From contig LJNK01000022.1 in assembly GCA_001303025.1 (NCBI GenBank), forward strand, positions 1-64,000: a stretch of 64,000 nt of DNA, given 5' to 3'. The position numbers and the translations under genes are program-made. Positions 1-42,918 of this stretch are shown here, in pieces. The notes under the pieces are model-generated. The model did no database searches. It saw only the letters and a program-made list of their open reading frames with translations, and had not been told where the DNA came from. This stretch comes from Deltaproteobacteria bacterium SG8_13 (GTDB taxonomy: Bacteria; Desulfobacterota; Desulfobacteria; Desulfobacterales; SG8-13). Numbering within the stretch: position 1 is the stretch's first letter; every line of letters starts with the position of its first letter.

Positions 1-403
1 CAACCTTGCCGGTCTTTGCCGCCGCAACCAGCAGAGACGATTGCATGCACAGATAGGCCGGGATCTGAATCACGTCGACGACCTCGCCGGTGGCAGGAAC
101 CTGCTGGGGGTAATGGACGTCGGTGAGCACCGGCAGACCGAACTGTTCCTTGACCCGACCCAATATGCGCAGTCCTTCATCCAGGCCCGGCCCGTGATAA
201 TGCTCCAGGGAGCTTCGGTTGTCTTTCATAAAAGAGGACTTGAAGATGACCGGCAGCTGCAGTTTTTCCGACATCTTCTTCAATGCCTCTGCAGTTTGCA
301 TCATCAGTGCCTCATCTTCGATAACGCAGGGCCCTGAAATCAGAAACAGCCGGTCGGCCCCGCACTCGACGCCGACCACGTGAACCTTTTTTTTGGGTGT
401 CAT
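1..403 (-). CDS. kdsA: 3-deoxy-8-phosphooctulonate synthase (KdsA), N-terminal part, cut by window edge
   Basis: KdsA condenses phosphoenolpyruvate with arabinose 5-phosphate to give KDO 8-phosphate, the precursor of the LPS inner-core sugar KDO. I translated the minus strand myself, because the ORF track misses this truncated gene. The first 134 codons read MTPKKKVHVVG, then the family signatures SGPCVIED (about residues 23-30), FKSSFMKDNRSS, GPGLDEGLRIL and LTDVH. The frame is open to base 1 and continues leftward out of the window. The start ATG is followed at once by a Lys-rich stretch typical of this cytosolic enzyme. It fits the LPS context to its right, from which it is transcribed divergently. 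Confidence 0.95.
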   Translation of the reverse strand, partial: MTPKKKVHVVGVECGADRLFLISGPCVIEDEALMMQTAEALKKMSEKLQLPVIFKSSFMKDNRSSLEHYHGPGLDEGLRILGRVKEQFGLPVLTDVHYPQQVPATGEVVDVIQIPAYLCMQSSLLVAAAKTGKV

Positions 404-742
404 TTTTTCCTCACAGCTTCTTGATGATGCGGCGTCGATCGGATCTTACGAAGGATCCCGATTGTGGCACAAGACAGACGCGACTGCAGCACCGCACGAT
501 GCGGAAAAGCTAAGGAAAAGGAAGTAAAATGTCAAGCAGATTTCTCCCGTCGCTGTGACAAGTCCTTTTATTTCCGGCAGATCCGTCGGGTACATACCGC
601 CCCGCCATCCGTCTCGTCATCGCTTTTTTGATACCGGCGGCCGGCTTGACAGTCCCCCGGGACAACCGGTATATCTGCTCTATCATCGCAGTCTTGCTGA
701 CGCGAAAAGGATACACCCTGTGCGCAAAAAGAAACCGAGAAG
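404..742. other. Divergent intergenic region between kdsA and waaF-like gene
   Basis: This 339-base stretch separates leftward kdsA from the rightward heptosyltransferase gene. The ORFs drawn across it (510..716, 555..746, 568..816) are overlapping shadows without family features. The only signal I can support is the rightward promoter listed separately. No RNA gene or repeat was seen. Confidence 0.6.
646..675 (+). promoter_or_regulatory. Predicted sigma-70 promoter for the waaF-like gene
   Basis: TTGACA at 646-651 is followed after 18 bases by TATATC at 670-675. That is a perfect -35 and a fair -10, about 70 bases upstream of the start at 743. The prediction rests on consensus match only. 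Confidence 0.45.
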
Positions 743-1747
743 ATGAATATATTGCTGGTCCAGACTAGCTGGCTCGGAGACACTGTCCTGTCCACTCCGG
801 TCATAGCGGGTATCAAATCGATTCACCCCGGTGCTGAACTGTGGATGCTGACCACGGCGCTGTCGGCAGACCTGTTGAGAGCAGATCCACTGCTGGCCGG
901 TATCATCACCTATGACAAACGTGGTCGGGACAGCGGTTTTTCAGGCTTTGCCCGCACATGCCGCCGCATCCGCGGTCTGAATTTTCAGCGCGCTTATTCC
1001 CTGCACAAATCCTACCGCACTGCCCTGCTGCTCTGGTATAGCCGGATACCTGAGCGAATCGGATTTGAAAATGCCCGCCTGGCTTTTCTTTACCACATCC
1101 GCAACCCGCGGCCGGCATCCGAACACGATGTCATCCGCAACCTTTCCATTCTTTCTGCACAGGCTCCTGCAGAAGCGTTGAACCCGCAACTGCGGCTCTT
1201 TCCGCCCGATGTTGAAGATGCCCGGCCGCCGGTAAGAGAGTTCCTAAGTCATATCCGGGATTTCGCCATCTTGGTGCCCGGCAGCGCCTGGGCCACGAAA
1301 ATGTGGCCATGGGAAGGTTATCGCCAGGTAGCTGTCCGGCTGCTGGAGAGGGGGGTGCCGGTGGCGCTTTTAGGTGCCAGCGCGGAAATTCCGGTGGCTG
1401 AAAAGGTGGCCCGGGGGCTCGATGTCGTCAACCTGGCGGGAAAGACGAACATCGCCGAAGCCATGTTGATGGTGAGCAGGGCCCGGTTAATGGTCTGCAA
1501 CGACAGCATGGCGATGCACCTGGCATCGGCATTTCAGATCCCGACCGTTGCCATATTTTGCTCTACATCACCGGCGTTTGGATTCGGTCCCTGGCAAAAC
1601 CGTGCCATCGTAGTGCAGCGGGAGGACCTGCCATGCAAGCCTTGCGGGCCGCATGGCTTCAAACGATGTCCAAACGACACGCAGACCTGCATGCAAGATC
1701 TTCCCGCCTCCCGGGTTTGGGAGGCGGTGGACAAGCTGCTCGCCTGA
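743..1747 (+). CDS. waaF: ADP-heptose--LPS heptosyltransferase II-like (glycosyltransferase family 9)
   Basis: GT9 enzymes transfer L-glycero-D-manno-heptose from ADP-heptose to the LPS inner core on the cytoplasmic face of the inner membrane. The 334 residues match the usual RfaF length. Visible features are the N-terminal Rossmann start LLVQTSWLGDTVLSTPV, the donor-site LVPGSAWATKMWP near residue 175, CNDSMAMHLASA near residue 251, and a C-terminal Cys-rich tract (CKPCG, KRCPND) common in the WaaF subgroup. The start at 743 follows a weak GA-rich ribosome site. Subgroup II rather than I or III is inferred from the C-terminal Cys pattern, so the acceptor heptose is not certain. Confidence 0.85.
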   Translation: MNILLVQTSWLGDTVLSTPVIAGIKSIHPGAELWMLTTALSADLLRADPLLAGIITYDKRGRDSGFSGFARTCRRIRGLNFQRAYSLHKSYRTALLLWYSRIPERIGFENARLAFLYHIRNPRPASEHDVIRNLSILSAQAPAEALNPQLRLFPPDVEDARPPVREFLSHIRDFAILVPGSAWATKMWPWEGYRQVAVRLLERGVPVALLGASAEIPVAEKVARGLDVVNLAGKTNIAEAMLMVSRARLMVCNDSMAMHLASAFQIPTVAIFCSTSPAFGFGPWQNRAIVVQREDLPCKPCGPHGFKRCPNDTQTCMQDLPASRVWEAVDKLLA

Positions 1748-1753
1748 CGGTGA

Positions 1754-1783
1754 TTGACACCGGCAGTCTGATTTCCCTATGCT
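1754..1783 (+). promoter_or_regulatory. Predicted sigma-70 promoter for the LPS kinase gene
   Basis: TTGACA at 1754-1759 lies 18 bases before TATGCT at 1778-1783, just after the waaF-like stop codon and about 125 bases before the kinase start. It suggests the kinase has its own transcription start despite the shared direction. Confidence 0.4.
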
Positions 1784-1909
1784 ATGGTAGATAACGAATC
1801 AGCGGCATTTGTTTGTACCGCCGACGGTATAAACCCGCCCCAAGCTCTGTGAAAGAGGCATCAAAGGGTATACCGGATCCCAACAACCATTAGGTATTCA
1901 TCGCGGTCG

Positions 1910-2605
1910 ATGGCAGAGATTCACTACAGCTCATTCGATACGGTCCGATTCGGGTCCTGCCAGCCCCTGGAACAAATGCAGCTACAGGATCTGGTAGGCC
2001 TGTTCGATCGGTCGACGCCGGCAGCCGGATCGGTGCTCGGGGGCAGAACGTCCGTCGTGCGCTATCAGCTGGACAGTGTCGGTCCGGTGGTCATCAAGTA
2101 CTACCGGCGCGGCGGTATCATCAGCCGGTTCAATGAAAAAACCTATCTGCGGTTCGGGAAAACCCGCGGGCAGCGGGAATATGAAATGATGGCGCATGTG
2201 CGCCGGATTGGGGTCCGGGCCCCACGTCCGGTGGCTTTTGCCCATCGGGGGTTTTTGTTCTATCACTGCTGGCTGGTGACCGGCGAAGTCGAACAGCACC
2301 GGACGCTCGCCGAGCTGAGCCTGGCCGATCCGCAACAGGCCTTGAGGCTAACCGCAGCAGTGGCCGCCGAAATCAACCGGCTGGTCGACCATCACCTCCA
2401 CCATGTCGATCTGCACCCGGGCAATGTGCTGGTAGATCGCCGGCAGCAGGTTATTCTCATCGATTTCGACAAGACCCGCCGCATCCGATCGGACCCTGCA
2501 GCACTGCGCCACCGATACCTGCAACGCTGGCGGCGCGCCGTGGCCAAACACCGCCTGCCGGCCGAACTCTCCCAGGCGCTGGAGGCAGCGCTTTTTAAAG
2601 GTTGA
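1910..2605 (+). CDS. Lipopolysaccharide core kinase (KdkA/WaaP family)
   Basis: This family phosphorylates KDO or heptose in the LPS inner core, using ATP at the cytoplasmic face. The 231-residue protein has a reduced kinase fold: VVIKYYRRGG (about residue 61) supplies the ATP-anchoring Lys, HVDLHPGNVLV (about residue 164) is the catalytic loop with Asp and Asn, and LIDFDKTRR (about residue 183) is the metal-binding DFD equivalent of DFG. Size is close to KdkA. It sits immediately after a heptosyltransferase and before other core-sugar genes. Whether it acts on KDO or heptose cannot be decided here. The start is chosen as the first in-frame ATG; its ribosome site is weak. Confidence 0.82.
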   Translation: MAEIHYSSFDTVRFGSCQPLEQMQLQDLVGLFDRSTPAAGSVLGGRTSVVRYQLDSVGPVVIKYYRRGGIISRFNEKTYLRFGKTRGQREYEMMAHVRRIGVRAPRPVAFAHRGFLFYHCWLVTGEVEQHRTLAELSLADPQQALRLTAAVAAEINRLVDHHLHHVDLHPGNVLVDRRQQVILIDFDKTRRIRSDPAALRHRYLQRWRRAVAKHRLPAELSQALEAALFKG

Positions 2606-2671
2606 TGCGAATAATTCGTCTGCAGGCGAAGGGATCGACCGGTGGCGGGCACAAATACCGCTCGTAAAATG

Positions 2672-2710
2672 ATTCCCGGCAAGTGTCCGGTCGGCGGGAT
2701 TCATTTTTTT
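2672..2710 (+). terminator. Possible weak intrinsic terminator after the LPS kinase
   Basis: An imperfect stem (ATTCCCG at 2672-2678 against CGGGATT at 2695-2701, one mismatch) is followed by a run of seven T at 2704-2710. The stem is short, so this is tentative. Confidence 0.3.
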
Positions 2711-2756
2711 ATCTCCGGTTCCGTCGACCCCTGGTGGATCAGTTCGGCACCGCAGA

Positions 2757-3140
2757 TCACCGCTGCTTGTAGTCCACGTATTCTTTCTCTTCGATCAGCT
2801 CCGAACCGCAGGAAAGGTTGATCTTTCTTTTCAGCTCATAGCGCTGATCATTTTGAATATACACACTTCGGGCCAGCTCGATGAATTCGTCGTCGAACTG
2901 TTTTTTCGCTTCCTTGAGACGGATTTTGTCCTCTATATCCCAGAGAATCAGATTGACCGACAGCAGTCCTTTGAATTCGTCCGAATCAATTGCAATCCCG
3001 ACTGCCTCCATCGATTCGCGAAGAATTTCGTATTCCCTGCGGATGTTGGCCAGTTTTTCCTCGTTTTTTATTTTCTGCAGCTTGATCGACAAAATGGTCA
3101 CCTTGTCCACCAGCTCGCCCACGGAGATCTCGATTCTCAT
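2757..3140 (-). CDS. DUF6165 family protein
   Basis: A 127-residue soluble protein starting MRIEISVGELVDKVTIL, which matches my memory of the DUF6165 signature (start followed by GEL-D-KITIL). It is almost entirely alpha-helical and rich in Lys and Glu, with long heptad-like stretches (KLQKIKNEEKLANIRREYEIL), and has no signal peptide or membrane segment. The family's biochemical role is unknown, but members often lie in polysaccharide or LPS clusters, as here. It is transcribed leftward from its own strong promoter and faces the LPS kinase tail to tail. Confidence 0.75.
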   Translation of the reverse strand: MRIEISVGELVDKVTILSIKLQKIKNEEKLANIRREYEILRESMEAVGIAIDSDEFKGLLSVNLILWDIEDKIRLKEAKKQFDDEFIELARSVYIQNDQRYELKRKINLSCGSELIEEKEYVDYKQR

Positions 3141-3179
3141 ACCTGCTCCTTGCGCCTGCGGAATAAATGTTTTTGGGTG

Positions 3180-3207
3180 TTTATACCGAGAGACGACGGT
3201 GTGTCAA
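3180..3207 (-). promoter_or_regulatory. Predicted strong sigma-70 promoter for the DUF6165 gene
   Basis: On the minus strand TTGACA (3207-3202) is separated by 16 bases from TATAAA (3185-3180), about 40 bases upstream of the ATG at 3140. This is one of the best consensus matches in the window. Confidence 0.6.
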
Positions 3208-3315
3208 GCATCCGCGGATTTCGGCAACACAGCGGACAAACTTGCCGTTGACATGCGCCGGTGTCTCCGATAGTGGAGGGGCGGGATCCCCACCGATAGA
3301 AACAGGAGCATCGAC

Positions 3316-4236
3316 ATGTTCATCTCCGGGTTGACCATCATCCGCAATGGCGTCCGGCTCGACTACCCTTTCCTGGAAGCGATCCGCTCCGCTCTGCCCA
3401 TCTGCGATGAATACGTGGTGGTGGTCGGTGACAGTGACGACCAGACCCTGGAGGCGATCGAAGGATTGGAGGACTCCAAAATGCGGGTGATTCAAAGCGC
3501 CTGGTCGAACCGGGTCAAACCTCAGCGATACGTTCTCTCCCAGCAGACCAACATCGGGCTGCACCTGTGCCGCGGCGACTGGGTGGTCTGCCTGCAGGGC
3601 AACGAAGTGCTGCACGAGTCCTCGCTGCCCGCGCTGGTCGGGCTCATGGAAAAACACAACCCTGACCGCAGCGTGGAGGCGCTGCTGCTCGAACGCCTGA
3701 CCTTCTGGGGGGACTATCACCACGTCATCGCCGTCTACCCGGAGCGGTTTAAATTTACACCGCGCATCGTCCGGCCGTATCTGGGCACCTATGCAATCCG
3801 CGATGCCATGAGTTTTGCCGTTTTTGACAACTTTTCCACCCGCGGCAGGTATCCGCGGGCGGTCGACACGGGAGAAAATATATTTCGCTACGGTTATGTA
3901 CAGACTGATCAGCAGCGCCGGCAGAAGATCAGCGAGGCGATCCATTTCGCAGATCATCCGGATACAGATATATCCGTTCAGTATTACTATCAGGAAGTCC
4001 CCAGGCAATTTGTCCGCCGGTTCACCGGCACGCACCCGGCGGTCATGGCGGAAAGGCTCGAAGCCACGCCAGACAGAATCTCACTGGAAGACGGGCGCTG
4101 GAGGGTGAAACCCACCCTCAAGGAGCGGCAGCGGATATGGGAAACAAGGTACTACGAGCGCTACGGTCTGCCGCGCCTGCGCAAGACCCGCTACTCGCTG
4201 GTGGGGAGCTACAAGCGCAAGCCGAAATGCTACTAG
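3316..4236 (+). CDS. Family 2-type glycosyltransferase
   Basis: A 306-residue cytosolic protein with a GT-A-like start, FISGLTIIRNGVRLDYPFLEAI, the pattern of small GT2 enzymes that act on surface glycans. A DXD-like acidic patch (VVVGDSDDQTLEAI, about residue 36) fits nucleotide-sugar and metal binding. CRGDWVVCLQGNEVLHE (about residue 92) occupies the place of the second acidic motif. The C-terminus is strongly basic (KTRYSLVGSYKRKPKCY). An AGGAG site lies 6 bases before the ATG. It sits between LPS kinase/DUF6165 and GT9 genes and probably adds a core or O-antigen sugar. Donor and acceptor are unknown. Confidence 0.78.
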   Translation: MFISGLTIIRNGVRLDYPFLEAIRSALPICDEYVVVVGDSDDQTLEAIEGLEDSKMRVIQSAWSNRVKPQRYVLSQQTNIGLHLCRGDWVVCLQGNEVLHESSLPALVGLMEKHNPDRSVEALLLERLTFWGDYHHVIAVYPERFKFTPRIVRPYLGTYAIRDAMSFAVFDNFSTRGRYPRAVDTGENIFRYGYVQTDQQRRQKISEAIHFADHPDTDISVQYYYQEVPRQFVRRFTGTHPAVMAERLEATPDRISLEDGRWRVKPTLKERQRIWETRYYERYGLPRLRKTRYSLVGSYKRKPKCY

Positions 4237-4256
4237 CGCTCATTGACCAAACGAGT

Positions 4257-5333
4257 CTATGCGTCCTGAACGCTGCAGTTCGTCAGTTTGTCAATCTTGG
4301 GAGCGGGCGGATATTTCTGCAGGGCCAGCTCGATTTTCTCCACCACATCACCGACCGATATTCTTTCCATACGCCCCGGTCGGGTGACCCGTCGAATGGG
4401 TGAATCTTCCTCGCCGGGATCGGCAAACCGGTTTATCAGCAAGTCGTGAAACGATCGATAGGGACCGCATCGTCGCGGATCCGAAAAGCCATACAACCCG
4501 ATGGTCGGTATCGCCATTGCCACCGCCGCATGCAGCGGGCCGGTATCCGGCGATACCACCAGCCGCGATCCGGAGAGCTGCAGGAGCGTGCGGCGAATCG
4601 GTTTTTCCAGGGCGACCGCCACGCGGCACCGGCAAAGGCGGCGGATCTCATCTGCGATCAGCCGCTCTTTTTGACTCGGTCCACCCAGCAAAAGCGCCTG
4701 GAGGCCGAATCGTGAATCGACATGATCGATCACCGCGGCATAGCGCTCTGCCGGCCAGTTTTTCTCGGCAACGGCGGCGGAGACGACGAAGCTGATCACC
4801 GGCCGGTCGAATTGTTTGAAAAAGCTTTTGCGCCAGCGATGCTCTTCCTCCGTGAAAGCAAAGTTCCACTCGATCGGATAATTTTGGATTTCGAGGAAAT
4901 CGAGAAATTCGAAATAGTGATCCTGGACGTGCTGGGTGGGGTGCTCGGTGATGGCCAGGCTGATGAACCATCCGTGCATCTCCCTGGCGCGCTTGCTGTC
5001 GAAGCCGAGCTTGTGTTCGGCACGAACCAGCGAAGAGATCAAACCGGCTTTGAAACTCACCTGGGGCAGCAAAAGCAAGTCGAAGCGCTCAGACTTCAGC
5101 TCCCGGTAGAGATTTCTCCATGCCTGCAAGCCTTCCCTGCGGTTGAACACGATGAAACGGTCCACGTTGGGCTGGTGCATAACCATTTCATAGGGAATTT
5201 TCTCCAGGATCCAGGTCAGATGGGCATCGGGGTATCCCTTGCGCAGGCCGTTTACCATGGCCAGCGCATGGACAACATCTCCCAGTGCCGATGTGCGAAT
5301 CAGGCAGATTTTTCGGGCATCGATTCTGGGCAT
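4257..5333 (-). CDS. Glycosyltransferase family 9 (heptosyltransferase I-like)
   Basis: A 358-residue GT9 protein beginning KICLIRTSALGDVVHALAMVNGL, the usual WaaC/WaaF N-terminal motif. The donor-binding region has VSPDTGPLHAAVAMAIPTIGLYG (about residue 260), where DTGPLH is the GT9 hallmark. It therefore probably moves heptose onto the LPS inner core. It is the last gene of the long leftward lpx/lpt/bam run, starting 13 bases after lpxK, and is convergent with the GT2 gene. The WaaC-versus-WaaF choice is uncertain; the SALGDVVHAL start is closer to WaaC. Confidence 0.82.
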   Translation of the reverse strand: MPRIDARKICLIRTSALGDVVHALAMVNGLRKGYPDAHLTWILEKIPYEMVMHQPNVDRFIVFNRREGLQAWRNLYRELKSERFDLLLLPQVSFKAGLISSLVRAEHKLGFDSKRAREMHGWFISLAITEHPTQHVQDHYFEFLDFLEIQNYPIEWNFAFTEEEHRWRKSFFKQFDRPVISFVVSAAVAEKNWPAERYAAVIDHVDSRFGLQALLLGGPSQKERLIADEIRRLCRCRVAVALEKPIRRTLLQLSGSRLVVSPDTGPLHAAVAMAIPTIGLYGFSDPRRCGPYRSFHDLLINRFADPGEEDSPIRRVTRPGRMERISVGDVVEKIELALQKYPPAPKIDKLTNCSVQDA

Positions 5334-7619: not shown

Positions 7620-8786
7620 TCAGGTTTGCATCGATCTGCGCAACGTTAACCGTTTGAAGATCCTCTCGAGCGTCACCGGATTCTCTCTGGCTGCCCTGAT
7701 CACCAGAAACACACCCAACGCTCCCATAACGATATCGGGCACCCACATGCCGATCACCGGTGGATACGCGCCGTTTTCGCCAAACACCATGCCGATGGAA
7801 AGCAGCACGTAATAAAACAGGAAAAACAGCAGTCCGAGCACCAGGCCTGAAGAGCGCCCGCCTCGCCGGGATTGGATTCCCAGAGGAACAGCCAGAATAC
7901 CAAGGGACAGGCAGGCGAGCGGGATGGAAAACTTCTTGTAGTATTCCATCAGGGACTTGTAATACCGCAGGTCTTTGTGCGGGTGGGTTTGAATGAACTG
8001 GCGCAGCTCGGCCAAAGACATCTCCTTGCGCCCTTTTTGCGGGCTGGCCGCGGTGACCGCTTTTTTCAAATCCAGCCGGACATTGTAAGTCTCGAAAGAG
8101 ACGGAATTGGCGCTGCGGTTTTCCACGTCCACCTGGTTGACCGTCCCGTCGTAGAGTCGGAGATGAAAGACCAGGCTGTCGGGTTCGCTGAGCAGTTTCC
8201 CGCGCGGGGCGATCACCGTGCTGGTCATCCGCTCGTCGCGTTTGTCTTCGATAAATACATCGATCAGCGCGCGGCTCTTTATGTCGATTTTGTTCACGTA
8301 CAGCATGACATCGTTGAAGCTGTCGTTAAACGTTCTTTCTTTCAAGCCGATGTCCAGGTTGGAAGAAAACACCTTGAAAGTCAGTTTTTTGATCGCCTGC
8401 CGGCCAACCGGTGTTCCATAAACCGCCATCGCATAAGCCAGCAGGCAGGCCAGCAGGCAGAACGCAAATATGGGCAGCACAAGACGATACACGCTGACAC
8501 CGCCGGATTTCAGGGCAACGATTTCGTTGTCTGCCGACATGCGCAGCATGGTGAGCAATACGGCCATCATGGTGGCCATCGGAATGACATAGGTAAGAAA
8601 ATAGGGAATCGAGAAGAGAAGGATCTGGGCGATTATTGTCAAACCGACTCCGTAGTTTACGATCAGGTCGGTGATCTTGAGCATCTCGGCCATCAGAAAC
8701 ACGAACGTGAAGAAGCCGAGGTTGATCACAAATGGAGGAATCAACTCCACAAAAATGTAGCGATCGATGATGGCAATTCTGCTCAT
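7620..8786 (-). CDS. lptF: LPS export permease LptF
   Basis: The 388-residue partner of LptG in LPS extraction from the inner membrane. It begins SRIAIIDRYIFVELIPPFVIN and has the coupling motif NEIVALKSGGVSVYRLVLP, a central periplasmic domain (about residues 125-275) and C-terminal helices (FSIPLACLSLGILAVPLGI, LVLGLLFFLFYYVLLSIG). The order lptF then lptG is the common one. It starts 11 bases after msbA, linking LPS flipping (MsbA) to LPS transport in one transcript. Confidence 0.92.
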   Translation of the reverse strand: MSRIAIIDRYIFVELIPPFVINLGFFTFVFLMAEMLKITDLIVNYGVGLTIIAQILLFSIPYFLTYVIPMATMMAVLLTMLRMSADNEIVALKSGGVSVYRLVLPIFAFCLLACLLAYAMAVYGTPVGRQAIKKLTFKVFSSNLDIGLKERTFNDSFNDVMLYVNKIDIKSRALIDVFIEDKRDERMTSTVIAPRGKLLSEPDSLVFHLRLYDGTVNQVDVENRSANSVSFETYNVRLDLKKAVTAASPQKGRKEMSLAELRQFIQTHPHKDLRYYKSLMEYYKKFSIPLACLSLGILAVPLGIQSRRGGRSSGLVLGLLFFLFYYVLLSIGMVFGENGAYPPVIGMWVPDIVMGALGVFLVIRAARENPVTLERIFKRLTLRRSMQT

Positions 8787-8797
8787 AAATCTGCGGG

Positions 8798-10588
8798 TTA
8801 ATGGGGCTGCGGCGACCCTTCCGCCGGTTGGTCGCTGAACTGCATCTGGTTGAGCTTACAGTACTCGCCCTGCAACGCCATCAGCTCGGCGTGGGTGCCT
8901 TGTTCTGCAATCCGTCCATTGACGACAACGATGATGCGGTTTGCGTGGGCAATGGTCGAAAGGCGATGGGCAATCACGAAGGTGGTCCGCCCCTGCATGA
9001 GATTCTCCAACGCTTTCTGCACCAGTTTCTCGGATTCCGTGTCCAGAGAGGAGGTCGCCTCGTCGAGGATCAGAATGGGCGCGTCTTTCAACAGTGCCCG
9101 TGCGATGCAAATCCGTTGTTTTTCGCCTCCCGACAGACGGGTTCCCAGCTCTCCGATATTGGTGTCGAATTGGCGGGGGAAGCCCTGGATGAAATCGTAG
9201 GCATAGGCCGCCCTGGCCGCGGAGACGATCTCTTCATCGGTCGCATTCTGCCGGCCGTAGGCGATGTTGTTTTTAACCGTATCGTTGAACAGAATCGGCT
9301 CCTGGGTTACGATTGCAATCTGTTTTCGCAGCGATGCGATGGAAGCTTTACGAATGTCCAATCCGTCGACGCAAATCGCCCCTTTGCTGACATCGTAAAA
9401 CCGGGGAATCAAATTCACCAGAGAGGTTTTGCCTCCACCGCTGGTGCCTGCAATGGCGAGGACTTCACCCGAGTTCACCTCCAGGCGGATGTCTCTTAAC
9501 ACCATTTCATCCTGATATTTGAAATACACCCCGTCGAAGGTCACCCGATGCGGACCGGGCTGGATTTCCACCGGGTTGGGGTCGTCGGTAATCTCCGAGG
9601 ATCTTTCCACTATGTCGAAAATTCTGTCGGTGGCCGCCAATCCCCTCTGGATGGCGTTGTTGAAATTGCTGATGTCCTTAATCGGCTTATAGAGAAGAAT
9701 CAGTGCGGTGAGAAAAGAAACGAACGTGCCGGCCGTAAACGCTCCGGAGAGTACCTGGTGACCGCCGTACCACACGATGACCGCCGCGGCAACGCCGCCG
9801 AGAAAGAGATTGATGGGGCTGGTGATCACCCGGGCGCGGGTTTCCTTCATCTCCATTTTGAACAGTCTACGGGATTTTTCAAAGAACCGATTTTTTTCAA
9901 ATCCCTCCATGCCAAAAGCCTTGACGATCTTATTGCCGGCAAATGTCTCGTGCAAATGGGCACTGATATCCGCCATCTCTTCCTGGCAACCGGTGCTGGT
10001 GCGTCGCACCTTGCGTCCGAATATGACGATCGGGAAAAAGGCGGCCGGCAGCACCAGCAGGGCGAACAGCGCCAGGTACCAGATCTGGGTAATCAGCACC
10101 GCAATAAGTCCTATAATGGTAAACAGATCGCGCAGGGACCCGGTGATGGTCGAAGAGACCATGTCGCGGACAAAGTTGACGTCATTGATGATTCGTGACA
10201 TCAGCGCACCGGTGGTCTCCTTTTGAAAAAACGACAGGGGCAGGTCCTGGATTTTTTCATACAGTCGATTTCTCAGGCGGCGAATGATGTCCTGCCCAAC
10301 ATAGGTCATCAGGTAATCGCCCCAGTATATGGACAAGGCCCGCAGAAAGTAGACTGCCACAATCAGCAACGGAACGATGTTGAGCATGCGGGTGTCGCTG
10401 CTGACCAGGATGTGGTCCACCACCGGTTTCATCAGATAGGCCGTTAGGGAAACGCCGCCCGCCTCCACGAGCATGCAGATCATTGCGAGCACTAGACGCA
10501 AACGGTTTTTTCCGACCAGTGCCAGGATCTCCCGATGACGGCTCTGCAGCTGGATTTCTTTTTGTTGTCCTGGTTCCGAGTTTTTCAT
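8798..10588 (-). CDS. msbA: Lipid A export ATP-binding/permease protein MsbA
   Basis: A 596-residue half-transporter that flips lipid A-core across the inner membrane. The N-terminal six-helix domain (about residues 25-325) starts with RLVLAMICMLVEAGGVSLTAYL and contains LSFFQKETTGALMSRI, typical of the MsbA/LptA-like exporters. The nucleotide-binding domain has Walker A GTSGGGKTS (about residue 381), Q-loop VTQEPILFNDT, signature LSGGEKQR (about residue 484), Walker B ILILDEATSSLD and H-loop VIAHRLST. Position between lpxB and lptF supports the MsbA assignment over other ABC exporters. Confidence 0.93.
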   Translation of the reverse strand: MKNSEPGQQKEIQLQSRHREILALVGKNRLRLVLAMICMLVEAGGVSLTAYLMKPVVDHILVSSDTRMLNIVPLLIVAVYFLRALSIYWGDYLMTYVGQDIIRRLRNRLYEKIQDLPLSFFQKETTGALMSRIINDVNFVRDMVSSTITGSLRDLFTIIGLIAVLITQIWYLALFALLVLPAAFFPIVIFGRKVRRTSTGCQEEMADISAHLHETFAGNKIVKAFGMEGFEKNRFFEKSRRLFKMEMKETRARVITSPINLFLGGVAAAVIVWYGGHQVLSGAFTAGTFVSFLTALILLYKPIKDISNFNNAIQRGLAATDRIFDIVERSSEITDDPNPVEIQPGPHRVTFDGVYFKYQDEMVLRDIRLEVNSGEVLAIAGTSGGGKTSLVNLIPRFYDVSKGAICVDGLDIRKASIASLRKQIAIVTQEPILFNDTVKNNIAYGRQNATDEEIVSAARAAYAYDFIQGFPRQFDTNIGELGTRLSGGEKQRICIARALLKDAPILILDEATSSLDTESEKLVQKALENLMQGRTTFVIAHRLSTIAHANRIIVVVNGRIAEQGTHAELMALQGEYCKLNQMQFSDQPAEGSPQPH

Positions 10589-41487: not shown

Positions 41488-41516
41488 TTGACAGCGATCA
41501 CCAAACAAACTAAATA
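41488..41516 (+). promoter_or_regulatory. Predicted sigma-70 promoter for the DsrE-like cluster
   Basis: TTGACA (41488-41493), 17-base spacer, TAAATA (41511-41516), about 100 bases before the 41614 start. A good consensus match in an AT-rich stretch. Confidence 0.55.
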
Positions 41517-41613: not shown

Positions 41614-41949
41614 ATGAGAGTTGTCTGGCAGCGAAAAAAAGCAGCGGAGTCCAATTCCCATTTCCGGCTTACCGCAGTGCTGGAGATGGACGGTGAAAAT
41701 CGTCAATCTCCGGCGATATCGAAACTGGGATCCATTGAGGAAAGATTTTTGGAGACCCGCATCCGTTGCACACGTGAATTCCACCAGGGGCTGTTCTGGA
41801 AGGTTGTGGACCGCCGACTAGACGCCCTCGGTCTGCAACAATCGCAAAGAGCGACCCTTGAGCAGGAGATAACTCGCACGGTGCCGCGACCGGGAGATGA
41901 GTGGGCACTGTGGGGGGTGACCTGCATTCCCCGCTTCGATCCCCACTGA
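41614..41949 (+). CDS. Conserved hypothetical protein upstream of DsrE-like genes
   Basis: A 111-residue soluble basic protein. It contains FRLTAVLEMDGENRQSPAISKLGSIEERFL, then TREFHQGLFWKVVDRRLDALGL and QRATLEQEITRTVPRPGDEW. From memory this recalls small uncharacterised proteins with a conserved pattern (beta-hairpin, LGSI, FW-VD-RL, then VPRP); no function is known to me. ATG 41614 is preferred because AAGGGTG lies upstream and the downstream sequence is the protein-like part; the track start at 41485 precedes the predicted transcription start. It is 63 bases upstream of the DsrE-like gene and likely in the same transcript. Confidence 0.6.
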   Translation: MRVVWQRKKAAESNSHFRLTAVLEMDGENRQSPAISKLGSIEERFLETRIRCTREFHQGLFWKVVDRRLDALGLQQSQRATLEQEITRTVPRPGDEWALWGVTCIPRFDPH

Positions 41950-42012
41950 TGCGCCATCGCCGGCGATGGACAGCATGCCCGGGGTTATTCGAACCAGTCA
42001 AAGGAGGCAACG

Positions 42013-42318
42013 TTGGACAAAATACTCGGAATTTACGTCAGTTCGGACCTGCATTTGGACAAGCTCATCAAGCTGTGCCAGGCAGCTCATAAAAAAGGAG
42101 TCGAAGTCCGCGTGTTTTTCACACACCTTGGGACACGGCTCTGTTTGGATCCTCAGCTGAAGGAACTCCAAAGCTGCGCAAGTATTGCGCTGTGCAAGGT
42201 CGGTTTTGAATCGAATGAGCTCGACCAGGACCAAACCAACCTCCGGCAGGAGGCCTTTACGTCCCAGGCCTGGCACGCTGAGATGATTTATGAATGTGAC
42301 CGTTACGTAACCTTCTGA
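42013..42318 (+). CDS. DsrE-like sulfur-relay protein
   Basis: A 101-residue protein starting DKILGIYVSSDLHLDKLIKLCQAAHKKGVEVRVFFTHLGT, a Rossmann-like DsrE/TusD fold. Cys residues occur at LCLDPQ and CASIALCKVGFE, the second being the likely persulfide-carrier position. It starts with TTG at 42013, supported by AAAGGAGG 5-6 bases upstream. It heads a three-gene string with two further DsrE-superfamily-like proteins, each preceded by a clear ribosome site. A role in moving sulfane sulfur (as TusBCD/DsrEFH) is inferred. Confidence 0.75.
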   Translation: MDKILGIYVSSDLHLDKLIKLCQAAHKKGVEVRVFFTHLGTRLCLDPQLKELQSCASIALCKVGFESNELDQDQTNLRQEAFTSQAWHAEMIYECDRYVTF

Positions 42319-42393
42319 GTTGAGGTTACCGGCAACCACCCATTCATCGTCCATCTTAGCAAGGTTGGCAGAAAGAAGATAAGGAGAATAGAA

Positions 42394-42705
42394 GTGGAAA
42401 ACATCAAGCACTGCGCCGTTCTGGTGCGAAGGCCTCAGGACATCTGGGAAGGCACTCGCACAACACTCGGTTTGGCCGTCCATAATATCTGGGCCTATTT
42501 CTTTGTCCTCGACATTGAGCTCGAAGTAGACGAGAAGCTGCAGGAGAACCTCGAATGGCTGGAAGAAATGGAATGTGCCTGCATCTCCAACCGCGAGGAA
42601 AATTCCCGACACGGGTTCACCATCATGACGACTGAACTGCTTGCCCGGGAACTCAAAAAGATGGACCTTGTGATCCCCTTTGGGGATCGGAACCACAGCC
42701 AATAG
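42394..42705 (+). CDS. DsrE/DsrF-like protein
   Basis: A 103-residue protein with the start KHCAVLVRRPQDIWEGTRTTLGLAVHNIWAYFFVLDIELE, consistent with the DsrE/DsrF alpha-beta fold (beta-strand, helix, strand). Cys occurs early (HCAVL) and in the middle (MECACIS). It uses GTG at 42394, supported by AAGGAG 7 bases upstream. It lies 75 bases after the DsrE-like gene and 18 before the TusB-like gene. The assignment is by fold pattern and context, weaker than for the first gene. Confidence 0.6.
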   Translation: MENIKHCAVLVRRPQDIWEGTRTTLGLAVHNIWAYFFVLDIELEVDEKLQENLEWLEEMECACISNREENSRHGFTIMTTELLARELKKMDLVIPFGDRNHSQ

Positions 42706-42723
42706 GATGGCAAGGAGAGCCCT

Positions 42724-42918
42724 ATGCCGCAAAGAAAAAAAAAGCTGCACATAATGAAAACCCCGGCCGACGATCTGCAGCGGTCCCTGATGTCCAACCT
42801 GTCGCTGGGATACAATTGTCTCCAATTCCCGCTGTTTGACCTGGATGGCGAGGGCCCGGATTACGACGATCTGGTGGATTTGATATTCGAATTCGACGAA
42901 GTTATCACCTGGTGGTAG
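42724..42918 (+). CDS. TusB/DsrH-like small protein
   Basis: A 64-residue protein: KKKLHIMKTPADDLQRSLMSNLSLGYNCLQFPLFD then DYDDLVDLIFEFDEVITWW. The LH-start and the ending DxLVDLIF-xxDxVI-WW resemble the ends of DsrH/TusB, but the protein is shorter than the usual 95 residues, lacking the middle. AAGGAG lies before ATG 42724. It is the third gene of the operon, matching the order D-C-B of sulfur-relay triplets. Confidence 0.6.
   Translation: MPQRKKKLHIMKTPADDLQRSLMSNLSLGYNCLQFPLFDLDGEGPDYDDLVDLIFEFDEVITWW

Follow-up and report, generated by a model that had tools for sequence, protein, structure and literature searches.

The window, the stretch of 64,000 nucleotides from Deltaproteobacteria bacterium SG8_13 that was analysed, contains a cassette of four small genes, here designated g1 to g4, together with a promoter-like sequence ahead of them:

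Positions 41488..41516, + strand: TTGACA-N17-TAAATA, read directly from the sequence, promoter-like at best
Positions 41614..41949, + strand: g1, a conserved 111-aa protein with an ATG start
Positions 42013..42318, + strand: g2, the predicted DsrE subunit of a divergent DsrEFH type II (101 aa, TTG start, putative carrier Cys61)
Positions 42394..42705, + strand: g3, the predicted DsrF subunit of type II (103 aa, GTG start)
Positions 42724..42918, + strand: g4, the predicted DsrH/TusB-like subunit of type II (64 aa, ATG start, C-terminal FDEVITWW)

The gaps between g1 and g2, g2 and g3, and g3 and g4 are 63, 75, and 18 bases, respectively. The bases 5′ of the start codons read AAAGGAGGCAACG-TTG for g2 (the TTG being preceded by AAAGGAGG), TAAGGAGAATAGAA-GTG for g3 (with TAAGGAG before the GTG), and CAAGGAGAGCCCT-ATG for g4. 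The positions, the three different starts, and the good Shine-Dalgarno sequences of g2, g3, and g4 are as given in a preliminary description of this DNA; g1 has a weak AAGGG alone. Upstream of the cassette, on the minus strand, lie genes that we take, from reading the sequence, to encode a UxaA-like protein and a B12-type ribonucleotide reductase, and downstream is what is presumably the start of a branched-chain amino-acid-type ABC transporter. No recognised sulfur gene (tusA, yedE, or other) adjoins the cassette in this genome, and it therefore stands alone.

A TTGACA promoter had also been proposed. The hexamer does occur at 41488, 126 bases ahead of g1. However, the hexamer at the 17-base spacing, TAAATA, matches a −10 box at only three of six positions and is not convincing. 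A consensus scan yielded no + strand promoter, its single match being at the level given by shuffled sequences. Because of the 3/6 match and the lack of recovery by the scan, the promoter is unproven, its function being no better supported than chance. Likewise, no terminator near the cassette rose above shuffled sequence.

To place the cassette among its relatives, public genomes were scanned with g3, and it was found by tblastn that the order and strand of g1-g2-g3-g4 are kept in four other Desulfobacterota loci (L013, L014, L015, and L016, in genomes G158, G148, G136, and G113, respectively). By tblastn, identity to these four relatives was 45-59% for g1, 56-66% for g2, 66-71% for g3 (67-72% in the scan), and 69-73% for g4; the g1 reading frame of L014 is shorter at the N-terminus. 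Since all four genes have relatives in the same order in four loci, they are not chance open reading frames, and the suggestions that a conserved gene stands ahead of the triplet and that the short g4 would be conserved in homologues are both borne out. The sulfur-relay operon is genuine and conserved, and it includes an associated protein that has no name. In genome G036, the E-F-H genes of the same clade are found with no g1 beside them, and so g1 is not always needed. Some further genes were seen at related loci: L016 has an extra DsrE-like gene directly 3′ of dsrH (8519-8913), apparently split over two overlapping frames, and in L066 (4092-4961) and L065 (7974-8915) g1-dsrEFH is preceded by a gene for an HdrC-like Fe-S protein containing several 4Fe-4S motifs, and this gene overlaps the g1 open frame in one of the two.

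The same tblastn comparison gave ATG as the start codon of g2 and g3 in the close relatives examined. Within this comparison, TTG and GTG starts are confined to this genome, which rules out non-ATG starts as a conserved device and leaves the idea that they set the stoichiometry of the subunits without support.

DsrEFH type II was identified in 2026 from the dsrE-like gene of the YTD gene cluster and two conserved hypothetical proteins (ISME J 2026, PMC13293266), and the structural resemblance was reached independently in a second paper (PMC13047784). The YTD cluster itself (yedE-tusA-dsrE-chp) is discussed in PMC12998232 and PMC13047784. The adjacent genes g2, g3, and g4 are homologous to the type II E, F, and H proteins, respectively, by tblastn and alignment, and correspond to dsrE, chp1, and chp2 of the YTD cluster. 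Identity was 40-46% between g2 and most YTD-cluster DsrE sequences and 33-40% between g3 and the CHP/DsrF proteins, and g4 is homologous to the 57-60 aa DsrH. The more distant relatives of g3 (33-40%) belong to clusters that read yedE-tusA-dsrF-dsrH-(168-aa gene)-dsrE-cytochrome c. In three such YTD clusters (L006, L009, and L096), dsrH and dsrE are separated by a conserved gene of some 160-168 aa, which appeared by eye to be unrelated to g1.

Cys61 of g2 was invariant in all 31 aligned DsrE sequences, as it was in a smaller alignment (11/11), and the carrier cysteine is therefore kept in homologues. On the strength of this invariance Cys61 may be equated with Cys67 of Electronema aureum, as it is the only invariant cysteine among the 31 sequences of this family. 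Mutagenesis in the cable-bacterial system identified Cys67 of DsrE-II as the site of sulfur exchange with TusA, and the type II complex donated sulfur to DsrC (PMC13293266). Assignment of g2, g3, and g4 to the DsrEFH type II family, by homology and the putative active cysteine, appears well supported.

Standard family models recognised the triplet poorly. Pfam and NCBIfam scans of g1 to g4 gave nothing significant, Pfam DsrE on g2 being sub-threshold (13.5 versus 22.7 bits) and the match of g4 to the C-terminus of NCBIfam TIGR03011 TusB being weak (12 versus 49.2 bits), and profile searches of PDB sequences likewise gave nothing significant. The single-chain AF2 model of g3 had a pLDDT of 91.9 and a pTM of 0.84, and its best Foldseek match was the DsrE-fold structure 3pnx (probability 1.00, TMq 0.65, E 2.3e-3). 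The best matches were DsrE-family structures, with modest E-values, none reaching E<=1e-3. The model and the 3pnx match support a DsrE-type fold for g3. The preliminary naming of the triplet as DsrE, DsrE-like, and TusB-like is corrected, with g3 as the DsrF-type subunit. The DsrH proteins are about 57-60 aa long in YTD clusters and 64-67 aa in the clade of the window; because a short DsrH is normal throughout type II, the 64 residues of g4 do not represent a truncation. Within type II, the DsrH of the window clade has a cysteine, in the motif GYNCLQF, that is absent from the other sequences and that might correspond to Cys20 of the type I DsrH of Allochromatium vinosum.

The triplet shares with canonical DsrEFH of Allochromatium vinosum and with TusBCD the three subunits, the E-F-H order, the DsrE-fold subunits, and the DsrE active-site cysteine, whereas its Pfam and NCBIfam scores lie far below the cut-offs and its DsrH is much shorter than the 95-position TusB model. 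The triplet can still be viewed as a sulfur relay of the DsrEFH kind whose TusB/DsrH member is short, but not as an abbreviated canonical TusBCD/DsrEFH, since type II is a separate family. It resembles the type II system of E. aureum in its three small adjacent E, F, and H genes, its DsrE active cysteine, its short DsrH, and its occurrence in a genome with reductive-type dsrAB and DsrC. It differs in forming a long-branch clade (in a joined E+F+H tree, with a support of 1.000 and a stem length of 0.91 substitutions per site), in having g1 in front of E-F-H, and in the absence of an adjacent tusA/yeeE. The gene order is E-F-H in the window clade versus F-H-E in most YTD clusters. On approximate profiles of our own, built from 24-25 other type II members, the window proteins scored 99.7 (E), 77.7 (F), and 44.8 bits (H), and the published survey required >80 bits for each subunit (PMC13293266). 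As F and H fall below 80 bits on our profiles rather than the published ones, the clade was only probably missed or not counted by the published scans. These comparisons indicate that the triplet would be a further, divergent branch of DsrEFH type II.

The content of the genome, which is 91% complete, was established by separate family searches. It has dsrA and dsrB followed by dsrD, which is a marker of the reductive type. In the search for dsrC and tus genes that had been suggested, a DsrC with both cysteines of the C-terminal arm was found, as was one TusA. No match to TIGR03012 (TusD/DsrE, type I) was obtained in the genome, and by this model a canonical TusBCD is absent there. No match to PF04143 was found either, and hence no YedE partner for the cassette. 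With respect to the YTD cluster, then, this genome differs in having no yedE match and in having its tusA on another contig. This TusA gene is part of the following cluster:

Contig C36 (7 kb; L082, positions 1-4627): marR(3′ end)-dsrE2-tusA-dsrM′-dsrK′-fadL

The Pfam families of the products of dsrE2 to fadL are DrsE_2, TusA, Nitrate_red_gam, Fer4+CCG, and Toluene_X, and dsrM′ was present in 41/390 genomes of the order. No published description of this cluster was found in a limited literature search. In G148, marR-dsrE2-tusA lies directly upstream of g1-E-F-H, and in four genomes (G117, G126, G171, and G151) the arrangement is marR-dsrE2-tusA-dsrM′-dsrK′-(fadL)-dsrF-H-E-g1. By gene order, these relatives tie a cluster of the C36 type to the cassette.

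The genome also contains a second, very divergent dsrF-dsrH-dsrE set (C72:73.6-75.3 kb; L080 7584-9315). It is a distant type II copy with a very long branch, which rules it out as the source of the window triplet. Upstream of it, on the other strand, is a sigma-54-type regulator; a c-type cytochrome-like gene follows it, and a rhodanese-domain protein is encoded nearby.

The protein encoded by g1 has an FHQGLFW core and the C-terminal sequence WALWGVTC(104)IPRFD, of which the tail W-A-L-W-x-V-T-C is conserved, and Cys104 was invariant in all 14 sequences whose C-terminus is complete. Neither g1 nor two of its homologues could be assigned to a Pfam or NCBIfam family, and Foldseek gave no PDB fold match to the AF2 model of g1 (pLDDT 83, pTM 0.76), in which the region of Cys104 falls to a pLDDT of about 50. 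Like DsrC/TusE, g1 is small, has a conserved cysteine near a probably flexible C-terminus, and keeps company with a DsrK-like partner. Unlike DsrC, which has two conserved cysteines, it has one, and there is no sequence-profile similarity or fold match between them: the hhalign probability was 0.2%, and no DsrC was among the best 50 Foldseek matches listed, so that g1 was rejected as a DsrC homologue. Because g1 has neither DsrC similarity nor a known fold, any role for it is a guess.

Within the order, 16/390 genomes have a homologue of g1, and a phylum-wide draw of 395 genomes gave one besides its own (G527, a distant copy). The G527 copy (L105 7486-7851) was read by eye as lying at the end of an HdrA/MetV-type (heterodisulfide-reductase-like) cluster; a further copy, which is partial, lies at 9163-9336. 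In the order, where several of the genomes counted are incomplete MAGs, DsrF-II was present in 15 of the 16 genomes with g1 versus 65/374 others (P=2e-10) and dsrM′ in 12/16 versus 29/374 (P=5e-10), these P values ignoring shared ancestry. The 111-residue gene therefore does co-occur with the triplet it had been said to accompany. The 16th genome (G003, 70% complete and of the family of the window) has g1, split over two frames, 83 bases from a contig end, with a gene like the neighbouring ribonucleotide reductase of the window on its other side; the missing DsrF is thus explained by the contig end.

It might be argued that g1 is an unrelated passenger that came to stand beside dsrEFH by chance. 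This would fit the arrangement in G036 and the separation of g1 from dsrEFH in G121 (and in G260, on a short contig), where it is divergent and next to the marR of a dsrE2-tusA-dsrM′K′ cluster. However, g1 adjoins dsrE in two different layouts, g1-E-F-H and F-H-E-g1, and the co-occurrence with DsrF-II, with the one exception at a contig end, also speaks against a passenger, which we consider unlikely. The neighbours of g1 in L071 and L074 (G233 and G121) include a gene for a MoxR/NorQ-like ATPase and a large gene of 939 aa. No g1 was seen in any of the yedE-containing stretches examined, YTD clusters included. We regard g1 as probably a partner of the sulfur relay, and our best guess is that it is dedicated to this carrier, as its partner or acceptor.

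The reading that we favour, with a probability of roughly 0.75, is that g2, g3, and g4 encode a cytoplasmic sulfurtransferase like DsrEFH type II, with which g1 co-operates. The three subunits would form a complex in which Cys61 of DsrE (g2) takes up sulfane sulfur in persulfide form, the most likely donor being the single TusA of the genome (or else DsrE2), both encoded in the marR-dsrE2-tusA-dsrM′K′-fadL cluster. From Cys61 the sulfur would go on to the next carrier, which would be DsrC or else a partner involving g1, and would enter a reductive-type Dsr pathway run oxidatively or in disproportionation, with DsrAB working in reverse by analogy with cable bacteria. The most speculative step, which we prefer tentatively, is that g1 may serve through its conserved C-terminal cysteine as a dedicated acceptor or adaptor between the carrier and a DsrMK-like complex. 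A stronger form of this idea, in which g1 is a new carrier/adaptor unrelated to DsrC whose Cys104 takes the persulfide from DsrEFH-II and hands it on to a DsrMK-like membrane complex, so that a branch of Dsr sulfur oxidation would run parallel to DsrC, is conceivable but doubtful.

Two other functions were weighed for the relay as a whole. The MarR-type regulator gene that opens related clusters, and of which the 3′ end lies upstream of dsrE2 on C36, would suit a module for detoxification or stress in which excess polysulfide is bound under the control of MarR, with g1 as a thiol sink or redox sensor; but the neighbouring dsrM′K′-like respiratory genes better fit energy conservation, and neither a persulfide dioxygenase nor any other gene for detoxification was recognised in the stretches examined, which makes such a module quite improbable. 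The shared folds of TusBCD and DsrEFH, and the similarity of g4 to the C-terminus of TusB, could instead point to a biosynthetic TusBCD-like relay for tRNA 2-thiouridine or another assimilatory need, outside energy metabolism. This appears very improbable given the lack of a TIGR03012 match in the genome, the patchy distribution of DsrF-II in the order (80/390), which is unlike that of a housekeeping tRNA function, and the neighbours in relatives, which are dsrE2, tusA, dsrMK-like genes, and yedE. In addition, type II genes mostly occur together with reductive dsrAB (PMC13293266).

The relay that we favour bears on how sulfur metabolism is read from genomes. The presence of DsrEFH has long been taken to tell sulfur oxidisers from sulfate reducers. 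Here, what would be a divergent type II branch lies in a genome that has reductive dsrAB-dsrD and gave no YedE match, and it points to both an unnamed protein family, that of g1, and the marR-dsrE2-tusA-dsrM′K′-fadL cluster. If the link between them is true, there would be a further route of sulfur oxidation or disproportionation in apparent sulfate reducers, which can be tested.
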